This document shows positions 11,052 through 60,343 of a stretch of DNA of 64,000 nt, one piece after another. Numbering within the stretch: position 1 is the first letter of the stretch; every line of letters starts with the position of its first letter. This DNA is from a virus. A model generated the notes under the pieces. That model was given only the letters and a program-made list of their open reading frames with translations. It did no database searches and was not told where the DNA came from. The position numbers were made by a program, and so were the translations under genes. The stretch covers positions 1 through 64,000 of the IMG/VR virus record IMGVR_UViG_3300009169_000020. One strand, 5' to 3'.

Positions 11052-14000
11052 ATGTATATTCGCCAGTCATATGATGAAAATTTTGAACATCTTATGTTAG
11101 ATATGAAAGATAAATATCCAAAATCTATTTTTGAATTAAATGGTATAAGTGATGATGATTTAGATCATACTAAATTTGCAAAAAAATATTTTACAAAGAA
11201 AAATGTGGCTAGTATATCATCTGATGCTAATGCTAATGTGCAAATAAAAAATATTGCTGCTTTTAATGTAGAAAGGCATAAGGGTTCAGATAAATTAGAC
11301 TCACTTTTTTTATTTTGGAAAACAGCAAAAAAACAATATGGATTAAGAGAAGCAAATAAATTAGTAGAAAAAGAGTTAAGTAAAGATCTTAATATACAAG
11401 ATAGTAGTAATTTTTACCTCCCTTATTCATATTATAGTCAAACACCAGTATTACTTAAAATAAATGAAAAAATAGTATATTGGACTATGAAACAATTGTA
11501 TGATAATTTTTCTTATCTACAAGTATATGATGAAAAATATAATATGCATAAAATAATTATTGATAATCTATATTCTAAATATGATTATGAAGGTTCTTTT
11601 ATGACAGAAAAAGGAAAGGACAGATTCACGGGTAATAAAAAAAATCTTTGTCCCTATATAGAGGATGTAAAAGAAAAAATAGATATAAAAATTTGGGATA
11701 AGGGGAATTGGGTAGGGTTAAAAAAAATTATAAAACACCAACATGAAGAGGATAAAAATTTTATTATTTATCAAACTAATGAGGGTGATTTTGCTTTTGT
11801 AACAGAAGATCATCCAGTTATTCTTAATGATAATTCTGAAAAATTAGCTGGGGATTTAGTTAATGGTGATGAAATTTTAAAAAATGATATTTTACCTACT
11901 TATAATCCTACAGTCCATATTCCAGATAACTTAGCCTATATTACCGGATTTATTTTAGGTGATGGAAATGTTGATGGTTACGCTAAAAATTGGGATTATA
12001 TAAAAAAATTTGAATTAGGATCTATTACCCCTAATTTAAGATTATGTAGAGGAGGTAATACTATTATGATATATCAGAATAATGTGAATACCTCTGATAT
12101 AAAGAAAAAAATAGATCAAGCATTTCCACAAGCTAATTTTTATACTTTAGGTTCGGATAGTGATAGAAAACTAGCTTTTACATCACAAGCATATTCTTTA
12201 TTATATGGGGATTATTTTAACTGTGGTTTAAAATCCAATTCTTTTTCTAAAAGACTACCAGAAAATATTTTAAATTGGGAAGAAGATTCTTTTATATCTC
12301 TATTATCAGGTTTAATTGATAGTGATGGTACAGTTTCTAATGGTAGGGTAGACATATCACTTTGTTCATATGCCATAATAAATGAATTATATGATTTATT
12401 ACGAATTCACAAGTTTATAAATGTTAGGAAAAAACTTCATGCTGGTAAAGGAAATAAATTGGGTAATAATTTTATTTTTTCTATTTCTTTTAGACCTGAT
12501 AAAAGATTATTAAATTATTCAGAAAAAATTAAAAATATGGATGTCAAATTTTTTAATTATAATCAAAATATGGATACTACTTTAAGAAATAATAAAATTT
12601 GTAAAATACATAAATTTAAGAAATCAGATATTTCAAAAAATAGTTTTTTATTTCAAGAAATTGAAAATGTATATGATGTAACAACTGAAACAGGAACATT
12701 TAATGCTAATGGAATGGTCCAACATAATTGTTTTGCGTTTGATACATATGATTTAATTACTATGGGATTACCTTTTGTTACTAATTATCCTAGTAAACCA
12801 GCTAATCATTCAGATGTATTTTGGCAACATACAATACAATTGCTACAGTACGCTGCTCCTCAGATGATGGGCGCTACTGCTATACCTAATTTTATCGTTA
12901 TATATTCAGGATTATTGAAATATGATTCTAAAGATATAAATTATCCAATACCTGATTATCAAGATAATAAAAAGTTATTTGAAAGATATACTAAACAAAG
13001 ATTTCAGGAAATGATTTTTGCATTAAATCAACCGTTAAGACAAGTTCAAAGTACATTTAGTAATATTACTATTTTTGATAGTATATTCATGAAAGAAATA
13101 TGCAGTAAATATATTATTAAAGATAACATTATAGATTCAGATTTTGCTATGTATATTCAAAGATTATTTCTTGAAACTGTTAATGAATTAAATAATTCTA
13201 AAATAGCTACATTTCCAATACTAACCGCGCAATTTAAAAAGAATGAAAATTTTGAAATAGAGGATGAAGAATTTTTAAACTTAATTTCACATATAAATTT
13301 ACCAACAGGACATTTAAATATTTTTAGTGATACAAGTCTTAATGCATTATCAAGTTGTTGTAGACTTATAAATTCTATAGAAGATCTATTAGAAGCAACT
13401 AAAGATGAATATATGAATCTTATTGGTGGATCATCAATTAAAGTTGGTTCATTAGGAGTATGTACTTTACCTCTTGTAAGAATGGCTTTAAAATCTAAGA
13501 AAAATGAGGAAGAATTTTTTAATTTACTGGAAGAAAATGCTATTGATGCTTATAAAATAAATCATTGTAGAAGAATTTTAATAAGTGAAAAAATAGATCA
13601 AGGAGAGATGCCACTCTATAACTATGGATTTATAGATTTAAAAAATCAATATTCAACTCTTGGAATAAATGGATTTTATGAATGTTTACATTTTATGGGG
13701 TATAATATACATACAGATAAAGGTATAGAATTTGGTAAAAAGATTTTAATCAAATTAAGTGAAATTTCTCAGATGAAAATGAAAAAATATGGTTATCGAA
13801 CAAATTTGGAACAAACTCCCGCTGAACAAACAAGTTCTAAACTAGCAAAAGCTGATTTAATATTATATAATCAGAATGAATTTTCTATTTATGGTAATCA
13901 ATTTATACCTTTAACAATAGATGCTTCTATTTATCAAAGAATAGATATACAAGCTGAGCTTGAAAAATATTTTTCTGGTGGAACGATTTTACATTGTAAT

Positions 14001-14279
14001 TTTAATGAAAAAATACCCTCATCTATTATGATGAAATCTTTTATAAAACATGTTGTTAAATCAGGTGTTAAATATTTTGCAATAAATTATTTTTTTAATA
14101 TTTGTAAAAATAATCATTATACAGTAAATATTAAAGAAATTTGTGAAATATGTAATGAACCTATTATAGATAGAATGACTAGAATAGTTGGATTTTTCGT
14201 TCCTATATCCTCATGGTCAAAAGAAAGGGGAATAGAATTTCATGATAGAAAAAAATATGATATAAAGAGTATTAGTTAA
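11052..14279 (+). CDS. nrdD: anaerobic ribonucleoside-triphosphate reductase with intein
   Basis: The 1,075-residue frame splits into N-extein (1-125, ending NFYLPY), a 434-residue intein (126-559) and C-extein (560-1075, starting CFAFDTYDL). The spliced enzyme would be 641 aa, near T4 NrdD (605 aa). The C-terminus carries a Cys pair (ICEIC) fitting the zinc site and RIVGFFV matching the glycyl-radical motif RVxGY. It reduces NTPs to dNTPs with formate after activation by NrdG. The insertion lies at a conserved PYxFxFD-type site, typical of mobile inteins. Ribosome site AGAGGAAG. Confidence 0.9.
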   Translation: MYIRQSYDENFEHLMLDMKDKYPKSIFELNGISDDDLDHTKFAKKYFTKKNVASISSDANANVQIKNIAAFNVERHKGSDKLDSLFLFWKTAKKQYGLREANKLVEKELSKDLNIQDSSNFYLPYSYYSQTPVLLKINEKIVYWTMKQLYDNFSYLQVYDEKYNMHKIIIDNLYSKYDYEGSFMTEKGKDRFTGNKKNLCPYIEDVKEKIDIKIWDKGNWVGLKKIIKHQHEEDKNFIIYQTNEGDFAFVTEDHPVILNDNSEKLAGDLVNGDEILKNDILPTYNPTVHIPDNLAYITGFILGDGNVDGYAKNWDYIKKFELGSITPNLRLCRGGNTIMIYQNNVNTSDIKKKIDQAFPQANFYTLGSDSDRKLAFTSQAYSLLYGDYFNCGLKSNSFSKRLPENILNWEEDSFISLLSGLIDSDGTVSNGRVDISLCSYAIINELYDLLRIHKFINVRKKLHAGKGNKLGNNFIFSISFRPDKRLLNYSEKIKNMDVKFFNYNQNMDTTLRNNKICKIHKFKKSDISKNSFLFQEIENVYDVTTETGTFNANGMVQHNCFAFDTYDLITMGLPFVTNYPSKPANHSDVFWQHTIQLLQYAAPQMMGATAIPNFIVIYSGLLKYDSKDINYPIPDYQDNKKLFERYTKQRFQEMIFALNQPLRQVQSTFSNITIFDSIFMKEICSKYIIKDNIIDSDFAMYIQRLFLETVNELNNSKIATFPILTAQFKKNENFEIEDEEFLNLISHINLPTGHLNIFSDTSLNALSSCCRLINSIEDLLEATKDEYMNLIGGSSIKVGSLGVCTLPLVRMALKSKKNEEEFFNLLEENAIDAYKINHCRRILISEKIDQGEMPLYNYGFIDLKNQYSTLGINGFYECLHFMGYNIHTDKGIEFGKKILIKLSEISQMKMKKYGYRTNLEQTPAEQTSSKLAKADLILYNQNEFSIYGNQFIPLTIDASIYQRIDIQAELEKYFSGGTILHCNFNEKIPSSIMMKSFIKHVVKSGVKYFAINYFFNICKNNHYTVNIKEICEICNEPIIDRMTRIVGFFVPISSWSKERGIEFHDRKKYDIKSIS
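11427..12728 (+). mobile_element. LAGLIDADG-type intein in nrdD
   Basis: Intein of 434 residues. It starts with Ser (SYYSQTPVLL, block A), has block B with TEDHPV, two dodecapeptide motifs of the homing endonuclease (ITGFILGDGNV and LLSGLIDSDGTV, each with its acidic metal ligand), then block F (VYDVTTETGTFNANG) and block G (MVQHN). The +1 extein residue is Cys. All splicing and endonuclease residues look present, so it should be active. Boundaries rest on restoring the NrdD sequence PY|CFAFD. Confidence 0.85.
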
Positions 14280-14293
14280 TGGAGATTTTGAAT

Positions 14294-14383
14294 ATGAGAA
14301 TATTTAGAAAGTTTAGAGATATAAAATTTCAAGATATTATAATTATGATACAAGGATTGTTAAACAAATGCAAAAAGAATTAA
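14294..14383 (+). CDS. possible micropeptide (29 aa)
   Basis: ATG with GGAG 9 nt upstream, basic, starting MRIFRKFRD, overlapping the next gene's start by 16 nt. Only spacing and ribosome site support it. Confidence 0.3.
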   Translation: MRIFRKFRDIKFQDIIIMIQGLLNKCKKN

Positions 14384-14556
14384 AAGGAAAGATTGTCAAA
14401 GTGTATAAAAATGTAAGAACAAAGTATGGTTATGAAGGTGATGGAAGAATAGAAAAAGTAATTAGACAAATATCAGATGATCTATACAGTTGTGAGATAA
14501 GTTTTTTTGATGATTTCTTTTCAGCTACTATTGATATAAATGATGTTCTCTACTAA
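14368..14556 (+). CDS. hypothetical protein (62 aa)
   Basis: Small beta-rich protein starting MQKELKGKIVKVYKN and containing DGRIEKVIRQ; the pattern is suggestive of a small barrel. No family recognised. An AAGGA lies 11 nt upstream of ATG. It ends just before the ribosome site of the phospholipase gene. Confidence 0.45.
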   Translation: MQKELKGKIVKVYKNVRTKYGYEGDGRIEKVIRQISDDLYSCEISFFDDFFSATIDINDVLY

Positions 14557-14578: not shown

Positions 14579-15361
14579 ATGATTAAAAAAATAATGTTTA
14601 TTATAGTAATAGTTTTTTGTTTTTCTATAATATATGCTGAAGATGTTGAAAAAGAAAAAACGTATGAATCTCCAATGAGTTTATATAATCAAAATTATAT
14701 AATTGCCGGGAACTCTCAAGATCAAGTTAAGATACAATTCTCTGCAAAATATAGTTTATTATATCCAGGTAATACTGGATTATATCTAGGGTATACTCAA
14801 TTATCTAATTGGTTCGTTTATAAAAGTAGAGATACATTTATAACTATGTATGCTCCAGAAGCAATATTTAGATTTGATTCAGGTGATAATCAATTTGATA
14901 ATTATAAAATACCCTATGTAGATTATATTCAAATATCACCTATATGTCATAATTCAACTGGAGTAGAAGGTGATATTCATAGAAGTATAAATGTATATTA
15001 TGCTCAAGCTCAAGTTAGTGTTGGAGAAGTTATTAACATAGGAGCTAATGGAAAATACTTTAGATATTATGATGTAAATTATCGTAATCCAGATATTAAC
15101 GATTATAAGAAAAACTATTCAGCAGGAATATTTTTGAAGATAAAATCTAAAACCGTTAATTATTTAGATAAAGAAGAACTACATTTCAAATTTGGTGGTA
15201 ATCCTAGAGGAAAAGGCTTTTATTGCATAGAAGCTCAGTTTAGAATACTTACATCAAGAATTCAACCAAAATTCTTTTGTTCATACTATAATGGATATGA
15301 TGAATTTATGATGTATTATAATAAACATACTAAAAGTTTTAGAGCTGGATTAACATTTTAA
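14579..15361 (+). CDS. pldA: outer-membrane phospholipase A (OMPLA/PldA-like)
   Basis: Start set at ATG 14579 because GAGGTG lies 7 nt upstream and a signal peptide follows (KK, a 16-residue hydrophobic core, likely cut after YA at residue 20). An in-frame ATG at 14540 would add 13 residues. Mature protein is ~240 aa, like E. coli OMPLA. The catalytic block fits: YTQLSNW and APEAIFRF strands, then HNS with His124 and Ser126, and Asn138 twelve residues on (IHRSIN), the same His-x-Ser...Asn spacing as E. coli H142/S144/N156. OMPLA is a calcium-dependent dimeric beta-barrel that hydrolyses phospholipids in the outer leaflet. Role in the phage is inferred: outer-membrane disruption at lysis or envelope remodelling. 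Confidence 0.8.
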   Translation: MIKKIMFIIVIVFCFSIIYAEDVEKEKTYESPMSLYNQNYIIAGNSQDQVKIQFSAKYSLLYPGNTGLYLGYTQLSNWFVYKSRDTFITMYAPEAIFRFDSGDNQFDNYKIPYVDYIQISPICHNSTGVEGDIHRSINVYYAQAQVSVGEVINIGANGKYFRYYDVNYRNPDINDYKKNYSAGIFLKIKSKTVNYLDKEELHFKFGGNPRGKGFYCIEAQFRILTSRIQPKFFCSYYNGYDEFMMYYNKHTKSFRAGLTF

Positions 15362-15382: not shown

Positions 15383-15946
15383 ATGAATATAATAGAATTG
15401 AATAAAAATATTAAATGTAGGAATCAATTCGTATTTGATAAGCAAAATATATTATTGGGTGAAGTTAAAAATGCTTTTGGATGTGATGATGTACAAGCTA
15501 AAAGATTTATAGCATCTATATGTAAATTTCTAGCTTTTTATCTTGAAGCTCAAGCAAAAGGTTTAATTACATATGATGTAGTTACTTATCTTAGAAAATG
15601 TATAGCAGATAAACTTGTACGAAAAGATGATGCTTATGTATTAGAAAGTTATGGATTTTATGATGGAGTATTTCAACATACATTTGCAGATTATTTTGGA
15701 ATAAAATCTATTGCTTTTGATAAATATGATAAATTCATTGAATGGACTAAAACACAAACTGAATATATAGCTACTATAAGAATAGTAAATAGAAAGAAAA
15801 CAGGAAAACATTCTCTTATATCATATAAACAAAATGATAAACTCTTTATATCTGATACATCTAATAGAGGTATTGCAACACCTTTTGAAAAAGAAATAAA
15901 TGCTCAAAATTTTATATATGCTACTATAATGATTCAAAACGCCTGA
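15383..15946 (+). CDS. hypothetical protein, possible cysteine-peptidase-like fold (187 aa)
   Basis: GAGGTAC ribosome region; starts 21 nt after the phospholipase. It has a Cys in FGCDDVQAKR (near residue 31), a His in GKHSLISYKQNDKLFISDTS near residue 143 and an Asp after it. That His-strand-Asp layout recalls C39/DUF261-type proteins. If right, it could pair with the phospholipase in host lysis. Evidence is weak. A terminator follows. Confidence 0.4.
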   Translation: MNIIELNKNIKCRNQFVFDKQNILLGEVKNAFGCDDVQAKRFIASICKFLAFYLEAQAKGLITYDVVTYLRKCIADKLVRKDDAYVLESYGFYDGVFQHTFADYFGIKSIAFDKYDKFIEWTKTQTEYIATIRIVNRKKTGKHSLISYKQNDKLFISDTSNRGIATPFEKEINAQNFIYATIMIQNA

Positions 15947-15956
15947 ATGACTATTC

Positions 15957-16007
15957 TTAGGGATCAAATTATCACTTTTTTCACTAATTTTATCCCTAAA
16001 TTTTTTT
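15957..16007 (+). terminator. rho-independent terminator
   Basis: TTAGGGAT pairs with ATCCCTAA, one mismatch, then AAATTA pairs with TAATTT around a T-rich loop; a run of seven Ts follows. Ends the phospholipase operon. Confidence 0.75.
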
Positions 16008-16089: not shown

Positions 16090-16425
16090 ATGAATAAAGA
16101 GAAAAGTGGTTTTTCAATTGAATTATTTACTAAGGAGACTATTGAGGACTATGTAGTATATTGGGAAATTAAACATGAAAAAATAGTATTCTGCTATATA
16201 CAAGATAGTTTTCTTGAAACAACTTTTAGAGCTAAATCTATTTGTCATAAAGATGATATATTCGATAAACAAATAGGAATGAGCATAGCATTTGATAGAT
16301 GTTTAGAAAAAAGAGAACATGCTTATAATAAACTAATGGATAAAATAGTTATTGATTTAACAGTTGTTAGAAATCATAATAGAAATTTAGAACATAAATT
16401 CTATAAGGAATTAAATAAGATTTAA
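16090..16425 (+). CDS. hypothetical protein (111 aa)
   Basis: AAAGGAG ribosome site 5 nt before ATG, downstream of the promoter at 16042. Mixed alpha/beta product with no recognisable domain. Stop lies a few bases before the tRNA-like element, so the gene may share its transcript with the RNA block. Confidence 0.55.
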   Translation: MNKEKSGFSIELFTKETIEDYVVYWEIKHEKIVFCYIQDSFLETTFRAKSICHKDDIFDKQIGMSIAFDRCLEKREHAYNKLMDKIVIDLTVVRNHNRNLEHKFYKELNKI

Positions 16426-20345: not shown

Positions 20346-22289
20346 ATGACAGGAGCATTTCTTCAGAAAAAAAGTCATTGTGATAAATGTCCCTTAGAAT
20401 TATGTATTAAAGATGGTTCTTTAACTAGAGCCTCTTTAAAAAAAGAAATTCAAATTAAAAGTGACATACAAGATTATTCTAATGTAGATTATTTATTTCT
20501 TACTGATACAGTTGAAAGACCAGAAGATTTAAATAAACTATTTAATCTTATAAAAAATAAAGGTATAGTTAATTTTGCTATTACATCAGCAATAGGTTGC
20601 AGAACTCTTAACTATGAATTACCTACACCATTATATTCAACTTATAATTATTGTAATAGTTTTGATATTAAAAAATTTAATCCTAAATGTGTAATTACTA
20701 CTGGAAAAGGGTTAACTCATTTTACTAAGGGTTCAGTATTTTCTTCTTGGAGAGAATTCAGAGAATGTGTATTCAATGAAACATATTTTTATCCACATAT
20801 AAAATCAGAATGGAAAGGTAGAATATATCCCTCAGGATTTATTCAAGATATATTTCATTTTGATACATTTGAACATTATCATTTTTGTGAACAATTAAAA
20901 TTTGCTAAACAACATATTGAGAATTATGAATCAGAAAAATTTATAATGCCACAATATAAAATAGAAAAAATATTAGATTTAGATAAATTTATAGAGGAAC
21001 ATAAAGATGAAAAGAAGGGGGCTTTTGATACTGAAACAAATAGTCTTAATGTATTTATAGATAATTTTAAAATGGGTAGTCTACAATGTTCTTTTGATGG
21101 TATAACAGGGTATTATATACCTTCATTAGCAATAACCAATAAAAGAAAATTATCAATATGGTTAAAAGATATTTATCAGATTTGGGCTAATGGAAAATAT
21201 GATTGCAAAGTATTAAATAGAGAACATATATCAGGTTATCATGTAGATGAAGATATTCCTTTAATATTTCATCTTCTAAATACAGAACGAGATAGTAATA
21301 GTATAAAAGTACTTTCATGGTTTATTGGATTTGGTGGATATGAGGATGATCTTGATGATTATAAAAAGAAATATAAAATAAAAAATTATCTTGATATTCC
21401 TGAACATATTATGATACCTTATGCAGGTCTTGATGGTATAGTTACATATAGACTTGAAGAATATTTACATAAATATTTAGTTTATAGACAACAAGAAACA
21501 TATAATCTTTATAGAGATGTAGTATTACCTGTTATACCTGTATTTCAAGCAATAGAAGAAAATGGTATAATGGTTGATAAAGATTATATAAAAAATTATC
21601 ATAATGAACTTATGGTTAAGAAGAGTATTATTGAAAAAGAGATTTATAGAATAGCGGATAAACAATTTAATATAGATTCAAATGATGAATTAGGATTAGT
21701 ATTAAAAGAAGCTGGATTACCCAATTATGGAACAACTAAGAAAGGTTTATATCAGACTAACGAAGAAATTTTATTAAAGTGGAAAAAAGATGGATTTGAA
21801 ATAGTAGAAAAAATATTAGAATATAGAAAAATAGCAAAATTAGATTCTACATATATCGGTAATCAAAAAGATATAGAAGAAATTGATTTTTTTGATAATT
21901 CTAAAAAAGAAAAAGAAAGTATAGGATTATATCAATATATAATGTCAGATAATAGAGTGCATGGAAATATTATGCCAGCATTAACAGATAGTGGTCGTAG
22001 CCTATGTGTAACTGGAGATACGCTTGTGTTACTTGATAATTTAGAAACTATTAGAATAGATGATCTCATAGATAGACTAAGTTATAGGGAGTTTTTTGTT
22101 AAAACACATACGGATAATAATAGGAAAGTTCTTAATGGTTGGAAAAAATCTTTGGAGACCGTTTTTGAGTTAGAATTATTAAATGGTAGTAAAATTAGAT
22201 TAACTGAAAATCATCGAGTATATACTGATAGAGGATTTATAAAACTAAAAGATTTAGATATAGACAATGATAAAATACTTAGTATCTAA
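20346..22289 (+). CDS. polA: family A DNA polymerase, N-terminal part fused to N-half of a split intein
   Basis: Residues 1-553 are extein. A Cys-bearing N-terminal region (SHCDKCPLELC) and a domain of uracil-glycosylase-like layout precede a 3'-5' exonuclease with FDTETNS near residue 229 and the start of the polymerase fingers/thumb (VFQAIEENGIMVD). The extein ends LTDSGRSL, inside the TxxGR motif of PolA. Residues 554-647 are the intein N-half, starting CVTGDTLVLL with block B LTENHRV, then the frame stops. The partner half is at 23520. Two precursors must trans-splice to give an 870-residue polymerase. Confidence 0.88.
   Translation: MTGAFLQKKSHCDKCPLELCIKDGSLTRASLKKEIQIKSDIQDYSNVDYLFLTDTVERPEDLNKLFNLIKNKGIVNFAITSAIGCRTLNYELPTPLYSTYNYCNSFDIKKFNPKCVITTGKGLTHFTKGSVFSSWREFRECVFNETYFYPHIKSEWKGRIYPSGFIQDIFHFDTFEHYHFCEQLKFAKQHIENYESEKFIMPQYKIEKILDLDKFIEEHKDEKKGAFDTETNSLNVFIDNFKMGSLQCSFDGITGYYIPSLAITNKRKLSIWLKDIYQIWANGKYDCKVLNREHISGYHVDEDIPLIFHLLNTERDSNSIKVLSWFIGFGGYEDDLDDYKKKYKIKNYLDIPEHIMIPYAGLDGIVTYRLEEYLHKYLVYRQQETYNLYRDVVLPVIPVFQAIEENGIMVDKDYIKNYHNELMVKKSIIEKEIYRIADKQFNIDSNDELGLVLKEAGLPNYGTTKKGLYQTNEEILLKWKKDGFEIVEKILEYRKIAKLDSTYIGNQKDIEEIDFFDNSKKEKESIGLYQYIMSDNRVHGNIMPALTDSGRSLCVTGDTLVLLDNLETIRIDDLIDRLSYREFFVKTHTDNNRKVLNGWKKSLETVFELELLNGSKIRLTENHRVYTDRGFIKLKDLDIDNDKILSI
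22005..22286 (+). other. split intein, N-half (94 codons)
   Basis: Begins at Cys554 of the polymerase frame: CVTGDT is block A, and GSKIRLTENHRVYT is block B with the TxxH pair. The frame ends ISI-stop with no endonuclease domain. This is the usual length for the larger half of a natural split intein. Confidence 0.88.
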
Positions 22290-22305
22290 TATATATACTA
22301 ATAGA

Positions 22306-22372
22306 AATCTTGGATAGGCTTTGCGGGCTAATAAAATATACAAATCCTGTTATTTGTATATTTTCCAAGATT
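22306..22372 (+). repeat. nested inverted repeat downstream of the intein N-half
   Basis: AATCTTGGA (22306-22314) pairs with TCCAAGATT (22364-22372). Inside lies a perfect 13-bp stem (22333-22345 with 22352-22364, A+T-rich) around CCTGTT. It could end transcription or protect the 3' end of the N-half mRNA. Confidence 0.55.
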
Positions 22373-22404
22373 CATTTTAAAAATAAAAATTATTATTCAA
22401 AACA

Positions 22405-22472
22405 GTTTCTACTAATAAATAATTAGAAATCCGCAAAATTTCTAAAAATAAAAATAACAGGGTTAGTAGAAA
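22405..22472 (+). promoter_or_regulatory. late promoter inside a start-blocking hairpin
   Basis: TTTCTACTAA (22406-22415) is complementary to TTAGTAGAAA (22463-22472), which covers the bases just before and into the endonuclease ATG. The late-promoter motif TACTAATAAATA (22410-22421) overlaps the left arm. Transcripts from upstream would hide the start; transcripts from this promoter would lack the left arm. An inner 8-bp stem lies at 22423-22445. Confidence 0.7.
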
Positions 22473-23533
22473 TGAAATACTCAATTCAAGAAACAGATTA
22501 TTACGGTTATATTTATGTAACTTTAGACCAAAAAACAAATAAAATTTATGTTGGTCAAAAGAAAGGAAAAATTGAAAAGTCTGAAAATTATTATGGATCT
22601 GGAACAATAATTAGCAATATACTGAAAGATAGAGGTAATTATTTTCTAAAGAAAACTGTTTTAGGGGTGTGTTATTCAAGAGAAGAGTTGAAATTTTGGG
22701 AAACTGAATGCAAATATTTCTTTAATGTTTTCGATAGGAATTACGGATATAATATAGCTATAGTTGATTATGGAGGAGATAATTTAACTCATCATCCAGA
22801 CAAGGAGAGAATAATTTTACAAACAAGTTTAACTATTAGATTACAACGTAGCGATCTTTCTAACGAAGAAAGATTAGTTCTACAAAACTGTTTATATAAT
22901 TTTAAACAAGGCAATGATCCACAATTACTTAACTATAAAAAATGGTGGTTAGCTAAAATTGAACAAGATGCTCAAAATAAAATAGACTCTCTTTTAACTA
23001 CCGAAGAAAGATCATTATTATCTAAAAATATATGGAAAAATAAATCTCGAGAGGAGAAAGAAATTTTTATTAACAAGATGATAGAGGTTAATAATTCAGA
23101 GGAACATGTTTATAGATCAAAAGAGAGTAGAAAAAGACCTGAATATAAAGAATTAATGTCTAATAAACTAACAGAGCATTATACTAAACCCGGTAGTATG
23201 GAAGTTCTTATAGAGGCAGTAACTAAACAGTGGGAAGCTCCTGGAAGAAAAGAAGACTACTCTTTAAAAATGACTGATTGGCATTCTAGGGAAGAAAATA
23301 AGAAGAAGCATAGTGATGCAACAAGAACACCTATTTCATTTATTGTTGAAGATTATATTAACACTCTGAATGAAGATTTCACTATATATGATATTATGGA
23401 AAAATGTGAATGTACTTATAATATAGTATGCTATCATTTAGAGAAGGAATTTGCTAAAGGTACTATTACTAAAACTAAAAGAAGAGGGAATATTCCCATA
23501 AAATATAGGAGAATTACTGATGAAGTTTGTTAA
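22472..23533 (+). CDS. GIY-YIG homing endonuclease within the split intein locus (353 aa)
   Basis: Free-standing endonuclease between the two intein halves. N-terminal GIY-YIG core: YGYIYVTLDQ, KIYVGQKKGK, YYGSGTIISN, the catalytic Glu region EELKFWETECKYF, and YGYNIA. The remainder is a long basic DNA-binding tail. Its last 14 nt overlap the start of the polymerase C-terminal gene. It presumably cuts intein-free polymerase alleles to spread the whole cassette. Confidence 0.88.
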   Translation: MKYSIQETDYYGYIYVTLDQKTNKIYVGQKKGKIEKSENYYGSGTIISNILKDRGNYFLKKTVLGVCYSREELKFWETECKYFFNVFDRNYGYNIAIVDYGGDNLTHHPDKERIILQTSLTIRLQRSDLSNEERLVLQNCLYNFKQGNDPQLLNYKKWWLAKIEQDAQNKIDSLLTTEERSLLSKNIWKNKSREEKEIFINKMIEVNNSEEHVYRSKESRKRPEYKELMSNKLTEHYTKPGSMEVLIEAVTKQWEAPGRKEDYSLKMTDWHSREENKKKHSDATRTPISFIVEDYINTLNEDFTIYDIMEKCECTYNIVCYHLEKEFAKGTITKTKRRGNIPIKYRRITDEVC

Positions 23534-23633
23534 TATTAAAAGTATCACAAAATTAGAAGAAAAGGAAATTGTATATGATATTGAAACTGATATAGATCAT
23601 TCATTTTTTGGTAATAATATATGTATCCATAAT
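23520..23633 (+). other. split intein, C-half (38 codons)
   Basis: MKFVNIKS start, block F VYDIETDIDHSFF, terminal His-Asn (CIHN) and a +1 Ser. Length of 38 residues matches natural split-intein C-halves. Confidence 0.88.
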
Positions 23634-24587
23634 TCCTTTTCTCCCAACTTACAAAATTTCCCGAAAAGGGGTGATGAGGGTAAAGCTTTTAGAAAAGTGT
23701 TTATAGCACCCGAGAATTATTATTTTTGTGAAGCAGACTATGCTGGATTTCAGTTAAGACTTATGGGTATATATTCTAAAGATGAAACTATGATAGATGC
23801 TTTTGTAAATCAGGGAGGAGATTTACATTCGGTGACGGGATGCGAGGTGTTTTCTCAAGGTACTGAATTATCTTATTTTATGGAGCATAAAAAAGAGGAT
23901 CCATATAAGACAGCAAGATTTAATGGTAAAGTTGTAAATCTATCTTTTGTTTTTATGGTTAGTCCTTTCTCTTTTCAAAATTCTATCAGAGAAGAATGGA
24001 CACCTGAACAAATAGATGATTATATTAAAAAAAATAAATTAGAAATAATTAAGGATTCTAAAACTAATTTTGAAAATAAAAATCTTACTATAGCTACGGA
24101 TATACATAAAAAGTTTTTTATTAAATATCCTAAATTACCTGATTATGCAAATTCAATGCAGAAATTTGCTAGAGAGAATGGTTATGTAGATTGTTCTATA
24201 TTTCCAGGATTAAGAAGGCATCTTCCCGAGCTAATTAAACAAGGTAGTAATCTCAATAAAGAAAAAATGTCACATTATTCAAATCTTAATAATATAGCGG
24301 TTAATACGGGTGCTCAAGGTGGTGAAGCTTATATTATTTATAAAGCATTAGTTAAAATATATAATAAAATAAAAGAACTAAACTTAAAAAGTATGTTGGT
24401 TGGTTCAGTTCATGATAGTATCGTATTGTACATATACAAACCTGAAGCAGAGCAAATGTATTATATATTAAAAGAAAGTATGGAAGTATTTGATTATTCT
24501 ATCCCTATCTTAGCTGATATAGAGTATGGAGACATTTGGGGATTTGGTACAGAAGTAGATAAAAATAATATTAAGGAGTTTATATAA
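23520..24587 (+). CDS. polA: C-half of split intein fused to DNA polymerase C-terminal part
   Basis: Residues 1-38 are the intein C-half with block F (VYDIETDIDHSFFGNN) and block G (ICIHN); the +1 extein residue is Ser39. The extein resumes SFSPNLQNFPKRG, exactly the PolA SxxPNLQNIP motif. Motif A reads DYAGFQLR (usual DYSQIELR), motif B KVVNLSFVF, motif C VHDS (usual HDE). The catalytic Asp residues of A and C are kept. Needs trans-splicing with the 20346-22289 product. Confidence 0.88.
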   Translation: MKFVNIKSITKLEEKEIVYDIETDIDHSFFGNNICIHNSFSPNLQNFPKRGDEGKAFRKVFIAPENYYFCEADYAGFQLRLMGIYSKDETMIDAFVNQGGDLHSVTGCEVFSQGTELSYFMEHKKEDPYKTARFNGKVVNLSFVFMVSPFSFQNSIREEWTPEQIDDYIKKNKLEIIKDSKTNFENKNLTIATDIHKKFFIKYPKLPDYANSMQKFARENGYVDCSIFPGLRRHLPELIKQGSNLNKEKMSHYSNLNNIAVNTGAQGGEAYIIYKALVKIYNKIKELNLKSMLVGSVHDSIVLYIYKPEAEQMYYILKESMEVFDYSIPILADIEYGDIWGFGTEVDKNNIKEFI

Positions 24588-24838
24588 TGGATGATTTTTT
24601 TAAGAAAAAACAATTAGTTGTAGCTAAAGACTGGGAACAACATTGGAAAGATATGCCAGAATTTATATGTAATGACTTAACCCCTAAATATCAAATTATA
24701 ATGTCATTCAGAGATGATAAGGCAAGAAAAGAATTTTCTAAACTTATAAATCAACCTATAACAAACAGTACAAAATCTTTATGGTATCCAAAAGAAGAAA
24801 TTGATGTAGTAAAGGATTTAAGATATGTTAACGAATAA
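24587..24838 (+). CDS. small hypothetical protein (83 aa)
   Basis: Start overlaps the polymerase stop (TAATG). Charged alpha/beta protein with WKDMPEFICNDLTPKY and TKSLWYPKEE. It overlaps the glycosyltransferase start by 14 nt. I recall similar short proteins next to phage DNA-modification genes but cannot name the family. Confidence 0.5.
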   Translation: MDDFFKKKQLVVAKDWEQHWKDMPEFICNDLTPKYQIIMSFRDDKARKEFSKLINQPITNSTKSLWYPKEEIDVVKDLRYVNE

Positions 24839-25712
24839 TCCACAATTCCCAATATATCTCCCATCTAAGGGTAGACATGATATAAAAGGATATACTAGCG
24901 ATAATCTTACTGTTATGGAAATACCTCATTATATAATTGTAGAAAAACAACAATATGATTTATATTATGAAGCTCATAAAGATAATAAATTTGTAACACT
25001 TCTTATACTTGATCCTAAATATCAAGATGAATATTTAACATTTGATGATCTTGGAAATACAAAAAGTAAAGGTCCAGGAGCAGCTAGAAATTTTGCATGG
25101 GATCATTCTATTCAAAATGGATTTACTTGGCATTGGGTTATGGATGATAATATAATGTCATTTAAAATATTTAATGATAATAGACAAATAAAAACAACTT
25201 CCGGAGCTATGTTTAAAGCTATGGAAGATTTTTGTTTAAGATATTCAAATGTATCTATGGCTGGACCTAATTATTATATGTTTGTACCTCGTAAGGAAAA
25301 ATTACCTCCTTATGTAATAAATACCAGAATATATTCATGTAATCTTATAAGAAACGATACACCTTATAGATGGAGAGGACGTTATAATGAAGATACTGAT
25401 CTATCCTTATGTATGTTAAAAGATGGATGGTGTACAGTTCAATTTAATGCATTTCTTCAAGAAAAACTAACTACGCAAGTATTACATGGTGGAAATAATG
25501 CTGATTTTTATTCTCAAGAAGGTACATTACCTAAATCAAAAATGCTAAAAGATATGCACCCAGATGTAACAGAAGTAGTTTGGAAATTTAGTAGATGGCA
25601 TCATCATGTAAATTATCTACCCTTTAAACAAAATAAACTTCTATTAAAAGATGATTATATAGTTAAAGAAGGTGTAAATAATTATGGAATGATATTAAAA
25701 CGCGTAAAATAA
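24825..25712 (+). CDS. TET-associated-type DNA glycosyltransferase (TAGT-like, 295 aa)
   Basis: GT-A-style glycosyltransferase. Landmarks: IYLPSKGRHD at the N-terminus, GPGAARNFAWDHS, a metal-binding WVMDDNIMSF (DDN as the DxD equivalent), WRGRYNEDTDLSLCMLKDGW, and LHGGNN. This order matches the phage TAGT family found next to TET/JBP dioxygenases and thought to glycosylate hydroxymethylated bases in DNA. No TET gene is in the window, so the acceptor base is unknown. It supports modified phage DNA. Confidence 0.7.
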   Translation: MLTNNPQFPIYLPSKGRHDIKGYTSDNLTVMEIPHYIIVEKQQYDLYYEAHKDNKFVTLLILDPKYQDEYLTFDDLGNTKSKGPGAARNFAWDHSIQNGFTWHWVMDDNIMSFKIFNDNRQIKTTSGAMFKAMEDFCLRYSNVSMAGPNYYMFVPRKEKLPPYVINTRIYSCNLIRNDTPYRWRGRYNEDTDLSLCMLKDGWCTVQFNAFLQEKLTTQVLHGGNNADFYSQEGTLPKSKMLKDMHPDVTEVVWKFSRWHHHVNYLPFKQNKLLLKDDYIVKEGVNNYGMILKRVK

Positions 25713-27689: not shown

Positions 27690-29011
27690 AGTTTACTTTT
27701 ATATATCAAAAAGATGGAAATTATGGAAATTATGGAATATATAAAATCACAAGAAAATTATGATAACTAAAAACCAACAAATAAAGGATTCTCTTTCAAT
27801 TACAAGGGAAAAACGTAAAACACAAACCTGTAAAGTTTATGAGTTGAAGTTGTCTGAAAATAAGTTCAATTTAAAACAAATTGATTTTTTGCATAGAATT
27901 TTCCTTGAAGCAAAATGGGTATATAATGATATTTTAAATTTTAATGATTTAAAAAACTATGATTGCAAAAAGAAAGAAGTAGAAATTCTAAATAAAGAGA
28001 AAGAAAAGGAAATAAGAGAATTAAAAGTTTTAGGTAGTCAGATTAAACAAGAAATATTACAAAGAACATGGGGTTCTATTAAGTCGTTATCTACTAAAAA
28101 GAAAAAAGGTAAAACAAAACAAGTGGGTAGACTTAAATTTAAAAGTCAAATAAACTCTATCCCATTAAAACAATATGGAATAACTTATAAGTTTCAAGAT
28201 GGTGGTTTAAAAATACAAAATTGTAAATTCTTATTTCAAATTAAAGGATTAAAACAAATTCCAAAAGAAGCTGAATTTGCAAATGCTAATTTGATTAGAA
28301 AATCTTCTGGATATTATCTCAAGGTTACCTGTTTTCTTCCTAAAGAAAATAAAAACATAAGTAAAGAAATATTAGGTATTGATTTTGGAATTAAAGATGA
28401 TTTAGTTTTGAGCAATGGAATTAAATTTCAAACTAAATTTCCAACATCTTTTAAAATTAAAAGAGAGCAGAGAAAATTAGCTAAAAAGAAAAAAGGCAGT
28501 CATAATTATTGGAAACAAAAAAATAAAGTTGCCTTAGTTTACGAGAAACAAAATAATAAAAAACAAGATTGCAAAAATAAAATTGTAAGTTATTTAAAAA
28601 ATAATTATTCTCATATAGCAATTCAAAATGAAAATATAAAAGGATGGCATGCAGGATTATTTGGAAAACAAGTACAGCAATCAATTTTAGGTGGAATAAT
28701 TTCGGAATTAAAACAACTTCCGCAGACACATATTGTTGATAGATTTTTTCCAAGTACAAAACTTTGTCCTGAATGTGGCTGTCTTAATAAAATTGGTTTA
28801 GACGAAAGAATATACTTTTGTGACTGTGGGTATTCTCAGGACAGAGATATTCATTCTGCAAAAAATATTCTTTTAGAAACAATACCTATGGAATGTAGGA
28901 AATTTAAGCCTGTGGAGTTTAATACCTCTGCAATAGATTATTTAAAATCTTTTGTAAGTGTGAACTATGAAGCAGGAAGATACAACTCTTTAGAGTTGTG
29001 TTAGTTCACAA
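27690..29011 (+). mobile_element. IS200/IS605-type tnpB-only element
   Basis: Carries tnpB but no tnpA. The right end is taken at TAGTTCACAA (to 29011) because that is where the two copies in the window stop matching. A hairpin ACAACTC-TTTA-GAGTTGT (28982-28999) precedes it. The left edge is approximate, set by the end of DUF932 similarity. By analogy with other TnpB elements, the tnpB 3' end and right end should yield the guide RNA, whose guide would be the flank starting CAATGAATG. Confidence 0.65.
27760..29004 (+). CDS. tnpB: TnpB RNA-guided nuclease
   Basis: 414 aa with all RuvC residues visible: Asp in GIDFG (208), Glu in IQNEN (291), Asp in DRDIHSAKNIL (361-363), plus the zinc knuckle CPEC...CDC (336-356). 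The N-terminal helical part is basic. Ancestor-type of Cas12, guided by an RNA from its own 3' end and cutting at sites that lost the element. There is no clear ribosome site at 27760; an upstream start is not available in frame. Confidence 0.85.
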   Translation: MITKNQQIKDSLSITREKRKTQTCKVYELKLSENKFNLKQIDFLHRIFLEAKWVYNDILNFNDLKNYDCKKKEVEILNKEKEKEIRELKVLGSQIKQEILQRTWGSIKSLSTKKKKGKTKQVGRLKFKSQINSIPLKQYGITYKFQDGGLKIQNCKFLFQIKGLKQIPKEAEFANANLIRKSSGYYLKVTCFLPKENKNISKEILGIDFGIKDDLVLSNGIKFQTKFPTSFKIKREQRKLAKKKKGSHNYWKQKNKVALVYEKQNNKKQDCKNKIVSYLKNNYSHIAIQNENIKGWHAGLFGKQVQQSILGGIISELKQLPQTHIVDRFFPSTKLCPECGCLNKIGLDERIYFCDCGYSQDRDIHSAKNILLETIPMECRKFKPVEFNTSAIDYLKSFVSVNYEAGRYNSLELC

Positions 29012-36630: not shown

Positions 36631-36704
36631 ATGTTGCATCTAATACCTAAAGGGGTTAGAAATATAATTTACAGTGACCTTTAATGGCACTAAAGAGGTA
36701 CAAA

Positions 36705-37238
36705 ATGTCTAAACACAATTATTCTCAAAATTCAGTAAGTCTCTCCAGTATTTTCAATGATGTAGTAGATTCAATCTATACTATCACATCACCTTCATCT
36801 ACTTCAGGAACATCGGTATGTGATTTTACTTATTACAGTTTCCCAAAAGTAAAAGATAATTTTTGGCAACTTGTAGAAGAATTTACTTATCCTACCATTT
36901 ACACACCAACTTACCCTGTAAGTAATTATTATGTAGATGAAGATATGAATTCAATAATAGAAATTGCTGTCTCAGGATTTTCTGAAGAAGAAATTTCTGT
37001 AAAAAGAGATGATCTTAAACTAATTGTAGAAGGGAAACAAAACAAAGATAAAGAATGCAAGAGAAAATATTTCTATAGAAATATTGCTGAAAGAGATTTC
37101 TCGGTATCTTATCAAGGCAGCACTAAATGGGATTTTGATAAACTAGAAGCTAAAATAAGCAGGGGTATATTGTCAATTTTTATACCAATGAAAGAAGAAT
37201 GTAAACCTATAAAACAAGAATTCAAAATTAACAAATAA
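36705..37238 (+). CDS. small heat-shock protein HSP20 (177 aa)
   Basis: The alpha-crystallin domain spans about residues 90-175: IIEIAVSGFSEEEISVKRDD, EGKQN, NIAERDFSVSY, then ISRGILSIFIP. HSP20 holds unfolding proteins; phage versions may assist virion assembly. ATG 36705 follows AAAGAGGT, so it is preferred to the in-frame ATG 36684. The longer start would add MALKRYK, which mimics the tag, but it lacks a ribosome site. Ends with a strong terminator. Confidence 0.82.
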   Translation: MSKHNYSQNSVSLSSIFNDVVDSIYTITSPSSTSGTSVCDFTYYSFPKVKDNFWQLVEEFTYPTIYTPTYPVSNYYVDEDMNSIIEIAVSGFSEEEISVKRDDLKLIVEGKQNKDKECKRKYFYRNIAERDFSVSYQGSTKWDFDKLEAKISRGILSIFIPMKEECKPIKQEFKINK

Positions 37239-43080: not shown

Positions 43081-43767
43081 ATGAAAAAGAAGATTTGTGG
43101 AATATATAAAATAGAAAACATTATAAATGGTAAAATTTATATTGGTCAAAGTACAAATATTCCTACAAGATGGGCCAGACACAAAAAGGAAGCTTCAAAT
43201 ATACATTTAAAAAATTCCATAGAAAAACATGGAATTGAAAATTTTAATTTTACAATATTAGAGGAATGTCCATACGAAAGATTAGATGAGAGAGAAATTT
43301 TTTATATTTCTAAATATGATTCTTATAATAAAGGATACAATAAAACAACTGGTGGAGGACAATTTAGAAATAGAAAATACATTGCTCCTTGGAATAAGGG
43401 GTTAACTAAAGAGACAGATGAAAGAGTGGCTTTATTCTATGAAAAGAGAAAGAAAACTATACCTTGGAGCAAAGGATTAACTAAAGAAACCGATGAAAGA
43501 TTGAAAACTAGTGGGTTAAATACGTCTAAATTAAGGAAAGGTATTAGCACTGGTCCGAGAAAAGGAAGATCAGTTATAAATTTAACAACAGGTAAAATAT
43601 TTAAATCAATATCAGAAGCTAGTAGATATTATGATATAGGGATTAGTGATATTTTTGCAGTGTGTGCAAAAAAACAAAATAGAAAGATTGCTGGAGGATA
43701 TAGTTGGTCTTATTATTCTGATAAGAACTCAAATGTATTTAAAGAGGTAACCAATGTCTCTAAATAA
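43081..43767 (+). CDS. GIY-YIG homing endonuclease between tail genes (228 aa)
   Basis: GIY-YIG core CGIYKIENIINGKIYIGQ, Arg in RWARHKKE, Glu in DEREIFYISKY. NUMOD3-like repeats follow (two copies of PWxKGLTKETDER), then a NUMOD1 helix-turn-helix (INLTTGKIFKSISEASRYY). It starts right after the upstream stop and its end overlaps the next gene by 14 nt, so it fits without breaking tail genes. Confidence 0.88.
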   Translation: MKKKICGIYKIENIINGKIYIGQSTNIPTRWARHKKEASNIHLKNSIEKHGIENFNFTILEECPYERLDEREIFYISKYDSYNKGYNKTTGGGQFRNRKYIAPWNKGLTKETDERVALFYEKRKKTIPWSKGLTKETDERLKTSGLNTSKLRKGISTGPRKGRSVINLTTGKIFKSISEASRYYDIGISDIFAVCAKKQNRKIAGGYSWSYYSDKNSNVFKEVTNVSK

Positions 43768-57444: not shown

Positions 57445-58188
57445 ATGTTCGGTATTATTTATAAAGCAACAAATATTATTAATAATAAATGTTATATAGG
57501 ACAAACTATAAAATCAATAGATGCAAGAATTTCTGAACATTATAAAAATGTATCCCGTAACAATATAACATATTTTTATAATGCTATTCGTTTATATAAA
57601 GAAGAAAATTTTATTTGGGAAATTATTGATGAAGCTTCTTCTAAAAAAGAGCTAAATGAAAAAGAAAAAGAATGGGTTTGGCTGTATAAATCAAATGATG
57701 CTTTATATGGGTATAATATGACTGAGGGGGGTAATGGGGGAGCTACAAGAATAGGCAGACCTCATACAATAGAAACTAAGCAAAAAATTAGTCAAATACA
57801 TAAAGGTAAAAAAAGATCACCATTATCTGAAGAAACAAAACAAAAAATTAGTGATTCAGAAAAAGGTAGAATACCTTGGAATAAAGGAATGGAATATTCA
57901 GAAGAACAAAAACAAAAATTATGTCATGGACCATTTTCAGAAGAACGTAAAGCTAATATGAAAAATAAGAGTGGAGTTAATAATCCTTTTTATGGAAAAA
58001 CTCATTCAGATGAATGGAAGCTTAATAAAAGTAAAAATCATCATAATAGGAGAGATGATATAACTATAGATAAAATATTAGACTTTATAAATAATGGATT
58101 ATCGATAAAAGATATTATGAAAGAATTAAATTGTAGCTATAAAGTAATATATACTAGAATGAAGGTATTTAAAAATGAAGCGATATAA
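57445..58188 (+). CDS. GIY-YIG homing endonuclease in the tagged cluster (247 aa)
   Basis: Core FGIIYKATNIINNKCYIGQ, Arg in ISEHYKN, Glu in ELNEKEKEW, YGYNMTEGG; then NUMOD3-like repeats (SEETKQKIS, PWNKGMEYS, PFSEERKANM) and a C-terminal helix-turn-helix. Its 3' end overlaps the start of the tagged gene at 58175 by 14 nt. Confidence 0.88.
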   Translation: MFGIIYKATNIINNKCYIGQTIKSIDARISEHYKNVSRNNITYFYNAIRLYKEENFIWEIIDEASSKKELNEKEKEWVWLYKSNDALYGYNMTEGGNGGATRIGRPHTIETKQKISQIHKGKKRSPLSEETKQKISDSEKGRIPWNKGMEYSEEQKQKLCHGPFSEERKANMKNKSGVNNPFYGKTHSDEWKLNKSKNHHNRRDDITIDKILDFINNGLSIKDIMKELNCSYKVIYTRMKVFKNEAI

Positions 58189-59418: not shown

Positions 59419-59474
59419 TGAATAGATATAGAACATTACAGGAACAAGCTAAAGCAAAGGGGAAATTACTTTAA
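59418..59474 (+). pseudogene. orphan 5' fragment of the prohead protease gene (18 codons)
   Basis: MNRYRTLQEQAKAKGKLL-stop closely matches the start of the protease at 60340 (MSRYRYLEDKAKLKGKILL). The endonuclease gene starts on its stop codon. It is the displaced original start, or a short tagged peptide. Confidence 0.65.
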
Positions 59475-60343
59475 TGAATACTGAATTTATATCTGGTCTT
59501 TATGTAAAGTTTGACGATGTAGTGAAAACTAATATTCATGGTATCATTTATATTGCTTTAAATACATTAAACAATAAATGTTACATAGGCCAAACTAAGC
59601 TTGATTTAAACACAAGAAAATCTCAACACATGAGACCACAGTGCAAAACATATTTTAGTTATGCATTAAAAAAATATAATGATAATTTTATATGGTCAAT
59701 TTGTGATATAGGATATTCAAAAGAGGAACTAGATATCAAAGAAAAGTATCTAATTAACCATTACCAAAGTAACAATAAAGATTTTGGTTATAATTTAACT
59801 TCTGGTGGTGATGGTAGATGTGATTTTAAACATAGAAAATCCTCTAATGACCAAAGAGCTTTATCTAATAAAAAATATTATACTGATTTATTCTATAAAG
59901 AGTATAATGTTAAATCTATACTAGATTATATGGAAAATAATGAGGTTACCTTTGTTGATTGTGCTATACAATTCAATTTAAAACCCAATAAATTAAAAAA
60001 TTTTTTCAGAAAAGAATTTCTTGATTTATATAATTTTTACTTGCAAAGAAGTGAAAAATTGAGATGCAAAAGAACTCAAAAGGGATTATTAGCTAGAGAG
60101 TTTGTTCCTAAAAAAATAAATGTGGATATAAATGTAATACTAAAATTATTATATGTATGTAATTCCTTTATAGAAATAGCTAATAAATTAAATGTAACCT
60201 CAGGAATTATTAAGAATAGATTGCAAGAATATAATATGGAACTTTATAATGATATAGTTAAAAAATATATTAAAATAAGAAATATAAATATTACTAATAA
60301 AAGGTACGGAAAAGATTTAATTGGTATATCAGAGGTATTATGA
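59474..60343 (+). CDS. GIY-YIG homing endonuclease before the prohead protease (289 aa)
   Basis: Core HGIIYIALNTLNNKCYIGQ, Arg in RKSQHMRPQ, Glu in DIKEKYLINHY, FGYNLTSGGDG. C-terminal part is basic with two helix-turn-helix-like stretches (SILDYMENNEVTFVDCAIQF, NSFIEIANKLNVTSG). It overlaps the protease ATG by 4 nt and contains a late-promoter-like TACTAATAAAAG near its end. Confidence 0.88.
   Translation: MNTEFISGLYVKFDDVVKTNIHGIIYIALNTLNNKCYIGQTKLDLNTRKSQHMRPQCKTYFSYALKKYNDNFIWSICDIGYSKEELDIKEKYLINHYQSNNKDFGYNLTSGGDGRCDFKHRKSSNDQRALSNKKYYTDLFYKEYNVKSILDYMENNEVTFVDCAIQFNLKPNKLKNFFRKEFLDLYNFYLQRSEKLRCKRTQKGLLAREFVPKKINVDINVILKLLYVCNSFIEIANKLNVTSGIIKNRLQEYNMELYNDIVKKYIKIRNINITNKRYGKDLIGISEVL
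60292..60303 (+). promoter_or_regulatory. possible late promoter TACTAATAAAAG
   Basis: Matches ten of twelve bases of the class, inside the end of the endonuclease gene and 36 nt before the protease start. Confidence 0.45.

Follow-up and report, generated by a model that had tools for sequence, protein, structure and literature searches.

A phage-borne lineage of OMPLA-type outer-membrane phospholipase with a probable role in phage release

The outer-membrane phospholipase A of Escherichia coli (OMPLA or PldA; PF02253; PDB 1QD5, 1QD6 and 1FW3) is a 12-strand barrel with the catalytic triad H142/S144/N156 (PMC5043575). Bacterial OMPLA, whose physiological role is a long-standing puzzle, lies idle until envelope damage, its known trigger, moves phospholipids into the outer leaflet (PMC5469174, PMC5043575 and PMC10153742). 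Its dimerisation in vivo is triggered by the bacteriocin release protein, according to a reference quoted in PMC4353708, and calcium is perhaps less important for its regulation than once thought (PMC10153742). Bacteriocin release from colicin plasmids, which combines a lysis lipoprotein with the OMPLA of the host, is likewise an OMPLA-linked egress of a mobile element through the outer membrane. The role that we propose below, breakage of the outer membrane as the final step of lysis, is also that proposed for spanins and disruptins; the former are fusion proteins that span the envelope, the latter small cationic peptides, and neither is an enzyme. Patatin-like phospholipases have been reported in viral contigs (PMC9469726); they too are virus-encoded, but their fold and location are unrelated to those of the protein described here. 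A 'phospholipase' is also named in Klebsiella phage KP1 (PMC9902359), and probably belongs to another family, since tblastn with three PLA1 proteins as queries matched no Klebsiella phage. We found no report of a phage OMPLA in the open-access literature, and no genuine deposited phage genome, PHROG family or BFVD structure among those examined contained one. Several candidates look like pieces of bacterial chromosome: the phage-collection matches H34/L096 and one Acinetobacter record by their neighbouring genes, a second Acinetobacter record by its like annotation, and two Salmonella draft contigs as judged from size and annotation alone. Enzymes of this kind are known; what seems to be new is the viral lineage with its altered site.

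The window (the whole stretch of DNA analysed, 64,000 bases) comprises bases 1-64000 of a 71,016-base IMG/VR virus record. A preliminary description of the open reading frame (ORF) at 14579 had claimed a phage-encoded OMPLA with a signal peptide, barrel-like strands and the triad spacing of the E. coli enzyme, followed by a possible peptidase gene and a terminator closing the pair, and had suggested breakage of the outer membrane at lysis or a change of lipids against superinfection. The features of the locus are as follows.

14368..14556, + strand: left syntenic anchor, a 62-aa ORF, 73% identical in a 155-kb phage at 66398-66586
14579..15361, + strand: pldA-like gene for an outer-membrane phospholipase of the PLA1 family (OMPLA-type), 260 aa, from PF02253 and the fold
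14579..14638, + strand: predicted Sec signal peptide (MIKKIMFIIVIVFCFSIIYA), from a hydrophobic segment; cleavage site by inspection
14828..14839, + strand: R84-D85-T86-F87 in place of the cellular S106-S107-P-F motif, from the alignment
14948..14956, + strand: codons of catalytic His124 and Ser126 (H-N-S-T-G), aligned with E. coli H142/S144
14978..14980, + strand: His134 in place of E. coli Ser152, from the alignment
14990..14992, + strand: codon of catalytic Asn138, aligned with E. coli N156
15383..15946, + strand: companion ORF, 187 aa, a candidate papain-like cysteine peptidase
15957..16007, + strand: probable intrinsic terminator with a 14-bp interrupted stem, a 13-nt loop and a U-run, from folding energy
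16090..16425, + strand: right syntenic anchor, a 111-aa ORF, 46% identical in the 155-kb phage at 68942-69295

The mechanical ORF call begins at 14540, upstream of the ATG at 14579, which is preceded by AAAGAGGTGATAATA and is the correct start, as given before; the ORF ends at 15361, with Phe as the last residue by inspection. The protein matches the Pfam phospholipase A1 family PF02253 at 65.1 bits (cut-off 27, E=9e-18), as do members of all four phage types in which we found the gene. A PHROG search and a single-sequence search of the PDB with the same protein gave no match, marking it as a remote member of the family; nor did it match the enterobacterial PldA equivalog NF008031 (cut-off 369 bits), on which its relatives score 34-52 bits. 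An AlphaFold2 model built from an alignment of 38 sequences (A5) contains 12 strands (pLDDT 85.9, pTM 0.78), and a Foldseek search of the PDB with this predicted fold placed OMPLA at ranks 1-8 of nine significant matches (E about 1e-10, TM 0.67-0.73), followed by a porin (6e-4). Taken together, the PF02253 score, the predicted barrel and the Foldseek ranks are far beyond chance, and the protein almost certainly belongs to the PLA1/OMPLA family. The N-terminus is hydrophobic at residues 5-23 (Kyte-Doolittle 2.4), in agreement with the putative signal peptide proposed earlier, which would be a trait in common with the E. coli enzyme. Identity to the latter is about 23-25%, and the two proteins have in common the motifs YTQxSxW and NPDI and a C-terminal GY.

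The catalytic site is that of OMPLA. The codons of H124 (CAT, 14948), S126 (TCA, 14954) and N138 (AAT, 14990) place the triad at His +0, Ser +2 and Asn +14, a spacing identical to that in E. coli, and H124, S126, G128, R135, S136 and D172 are kept in 38/38 aligned sequences. The triad is retained in all phage relatives except for an Asn-to-Asp change at the third position in the most divergent copy (L015). Both checks that the preliminary description had named, a 12-strand barrel in the structure prediction and retention of catalytic residues in close relatives, thus came out in its favour, the second with this one substitution.

Around this conserved centre the viral proteins depart from cellular OMPLA. 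All 11 cellular sequences in the comparison have S106, P108, N145 and S152, whereas the window clade has R84, T86, T127 and H134 at these positions, and the equivalent of R147 is V129 in the window protein; the E. coli residues S106/S107-P, N145, R147, S152 and D184 are all unconserved there. Across the four viral types, the S106 equivalent is Arg in three, and the S152 equivalent is His, His, His and Asn (Ser in 11/11 cellular proteins). The L015 copy keeps S106, P108 and N145 and has V, N and D at 147, 152 and 156. We take S106, R147 and S152 to be the residues that bind calcium where the subunits meet in the OMPLA dimer structures; the E. coli-type Ca2+ site presumed on this basis is absent from the window protein, which has R84, V129 and H134 in its place. 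If this is indeed the calcium site, the site behind calcium-dependent activation of the dimer has been remodelled in the viral lineage, and regulation of the viral enzyme may differ, as far as the alignment indicates, from that of bacterial OMPLA. A bolder version, in which a distinct viral lineage has lost the calcium and dimer-interface latch to become a self-sufficient lytic effector, strikes us as unlikely, if conceivable. The same replacements at the S106, R147 and S152 equivalents (S106 being kept in L015), together with the Asn-to-Asp change in one phage copy, could signify a descendant of the fold whose enzyme activity has been lost or changed, for example a structural outer-membrane protein. 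However, the Ser, His and Gly of H-x-S-x-G and the R-S pair are invariant in viral and cellular proteins alike, and two bacterial homologues (L071 and L111) likewise have Asp at the third triad position, making such repurposing very improbable in our judgement.

The gene is truly phage-borne, as had been claimed. In the record, L002:2558-4015 is a major capsid gene, which tblastn matches to a phage protein annotated as the major head protein. Its relatives (71-74%) point to six IMG/VR contigs, one of which, the 155-kb phage of the feature list (G006; 155,573 bases), is collinear with the window over large blocks. Single-sequence searches of the viral_contigs and phages collections with pldA returned no relatives; these were reached through the capsid gene first and then by alignment-based searches. 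The pldA of the 155-kb phage, of which L012 holds a near-copy, is 57% identical to that of the window, as is that of a phage with a P22-type portal (L014), and the copy in L015, another phage, is 36% identical. All five phage copies form one clade with support of 100/99 against 35 cellular PldAs and against 55, in trees that include viral sequences of unusual composition and some long branches. In four phylum samples, about 730 genomes in all, profile searches scored no higher than 95 bits. The dN/dS ratio is about 0.4 between the window and the 155-kb phage, and 0.08 for L012 against L013, a pair with only 8 differences; pldA is under purifying selection.

A bacterial gene misbinned as viral, or misassembled onto a phage contig, is not without precedent: one 'Acinetobacter phage' record and a 4.3-kb scaffold of the phage collection carry a bacterial pldA amid chromosomal genes. 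Yet both flanks of the window gene are syntenic with another phage, four other viral contigs hold copies of the same clade, the GC content of pldA agrees with that of each contig, and full-length cellular homologues in a scan of species genomes reach at most 28% identity among the matches listed, against 54-57% for the phage copies. When viral_contigs was scanned with an alignment made up of cellular PldAs alone (two patterns), nothing was found, indicating that, within the reach of those two patterns, bacterial-type pldA is no common contaminant there. Misbinning or misassembly is effectively refuted.

Genomic context offers hints as to function. Between the two anchors that flank pldA and its companion in the window, the 155-kb phage holds other ORFs, the first of which is endolysin-like (phrog_33083, 1e-11), so that pldA and its companion fill the slot of this ORF, which has no homologue in the window record. 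The pldA of the 155-kb phage lies 25 kb from the endolysin-like ORF, is flanked on both sides by small ORFs with hydrophobic segments and is followed after about 1.5 kb by a lipoprotein-like SLT-domain protein (21.0 bits, cut-off 21.3). In the P22-portal phage the order is pldA, an 81-aa ORF with one transmembrane segment, the large terminase (phrog_38, 4e-45) and the portal, and in L015 an endolysin-like ORF (phrog_33083, 2e-10) lies 1.7 kb downstream of pldA. These differing contexts suggest that pldA is mobile among phages. In each of them a gene of lysis type, or one for a membrane protein, is either close by or displaced, and we regard the three relatives and the slot replacement in the window as suggestive of a lysis role. 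That the neighbours differ in all four phages is also what one would expect of an accessory gene that moves about and lacks a constant partner. The earlier proposal of outer-membrane breakage has genomic context in its favour, but no recognisable holin or spanin lies beside the window pldA, which sits amid nucleotide-metabolism genes, and no holin or spanin model match was recognised near pldA in the window or its relatives, some neighbours labelled 'lysis' being weak matches. No late promoter was identified for the window gene, T4-type late promoters (TATAAATA) occurring near chance level. The window record probably covers 71 kb of a genome of 150 kb, so that genes for a holin, an endolysin and spanins of this phage may be located in the remainder.

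Two other uses can be weighed against these contexts. A barrel or its lipolysis might alter the host surface and so block adsorption or injection by other phages, a superinfection exclusion or receptor change with which the expected outer-membrane location, a genomic position that is not conserved, as is typical of accessory (moron-like) genes, and the setting amid DNA-metabolism genes in the window agree; but blocking needs no conserved catalytic triad, and one copy, in the P22-portal phage, is close to the terminase gene. We consider this distinctly improbable. Alternatively, PldA could be a metabolic gene that, in the course of infection, frees fatty acids and glycerophosphodiesters from the membranes of the host for energy, phosphate or membrane remodelling. 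Its position among nucleotide-metabolism genes would suit this, as would a stand-alone glycerophosphodiester phosphodiesterase (GDPD; L015:3999-4682, PF03009, 140 bits) about 3.3 kb upstream of pldA in L015, which would act on fully deacylated phospholipids. An outer-leaflet enzyme, however, would free its products outside the cell, phage tail proteins also contain GDPD domains, and GDPD is present in just one of nine records, leading us to reject it as a constant partner of pldA (for a GDPD-like ORF of the 155-kb phage, Pfam gave no significant match). Lipid harvest thus seems quite unlikely, and weakening of the host outer membrane at phage release is, in our assessment, the probable function of the pldA product.

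The companion ORF begins 21 nt past the pldA stop. Its description as a possible peptidase stays tentative: family searches gave no significant match, its single-sequence fold is uninformative (pLDDT 38), and one weak relative was found in the P22-portal phage (E=4e-4), about 9 kb from pldA there. By inspection, the two share an early Gly-Cys and later His and Ser-Asp segments, a pattern that might fit a papain-like peptidase. As for the terminator, a hairpin (15957-15999) with a U-run after the companion ORF (-11.6 kcal/mol, z=-3.9) makes it plausible, but a strict terminator scan found none. With this hairpin 3' of the companion, the two genes may form one transcription unit.

Several further features of the record and its relatives were observed. 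About 16 ORFs have an N-terminal MKRYKxxFxE-like motif (window 26322, 35016, 38187, 41100, 58175, 58613, 58914, 59152 and 60340, among others; also L002 9774-10767, - strand), including a likely prohead protease/scaffold at 60340. Many ORFs of the capsid-related phages have this motif too, as do many in the L015 phage, and it looks like a capsid-targeting sequence with a role comparable to that in T4 internal proteins. An Hsp20 small heat-shock protein (window 36684-37238) bears an N-terminal MALKRYK motif and is thus possibly packaged in the head. The anaerobic ribonucleotide reductase NrdD (window 11052-14279) is broken by an intein with a LAGLIDADG-like domain, the NrdD of the 155-kb phage being shorter and seemingly intein-free. 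An intein splits a family A DNA polymerase (window 20346-24587) and contains, in its middle, an ORF for a GIY-YIG-like homing endonuclease (22472-23533); both halves of the polymerase match a single uninterrupted ORF of the 155-kb phage. By inspection, three further GIY-YIG-like homing endonuclease ORFs lie amid structural genes (window 43081-43767, 57445-58188 and 59474-60343), and an IS605-type TnpB-like ORF (window 27760-29004) has a 91% identical counterpart in the 155-kb phage. A glucosyltransferase-like ORF (window 24825-25712; phrog_842, beta-glucosyl-HMC-alpha-glucosyltransferase, 9e-47) hints at modified phage DNA. In L015, a protein at 12787-13725 has many W-[EK]-x-G-x-W repeats (GTWEDGIWETGIWEYG...).

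In the lysis model that we favour, PldA would be exported via Sec and fold as a 12-strand barrel in the host outer membrane, where the Ser-His-Asn triad on the outer face of the barrel would cleave acyl chains off phospholipids. At the end of infection, collapse of the envelope by holin and endolysin would bring phospholipids into the outer leaflet, and their hydrolysis by PldA would help to break the outer membrane and let the progeny escape, supplementing or replacing spanins. Whereas colicin plasmids activate the OMPLA of the host, this phage would supply its own enzyme. That at least four phage types carry pldA, under purifying selection, indicates that its activity has a use favoured by selection, and the gene offers a testable lipid-hydrolysing route to outer-membrane disruption. 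The altered site residues provide natural variants for testing how OMPLA activity gets switched on and, should the unlikely notion of a latch-free viral OMPLA prove true, it would constitute a third, enzymatic route through the outer membrane, beside spanins and disruptins.
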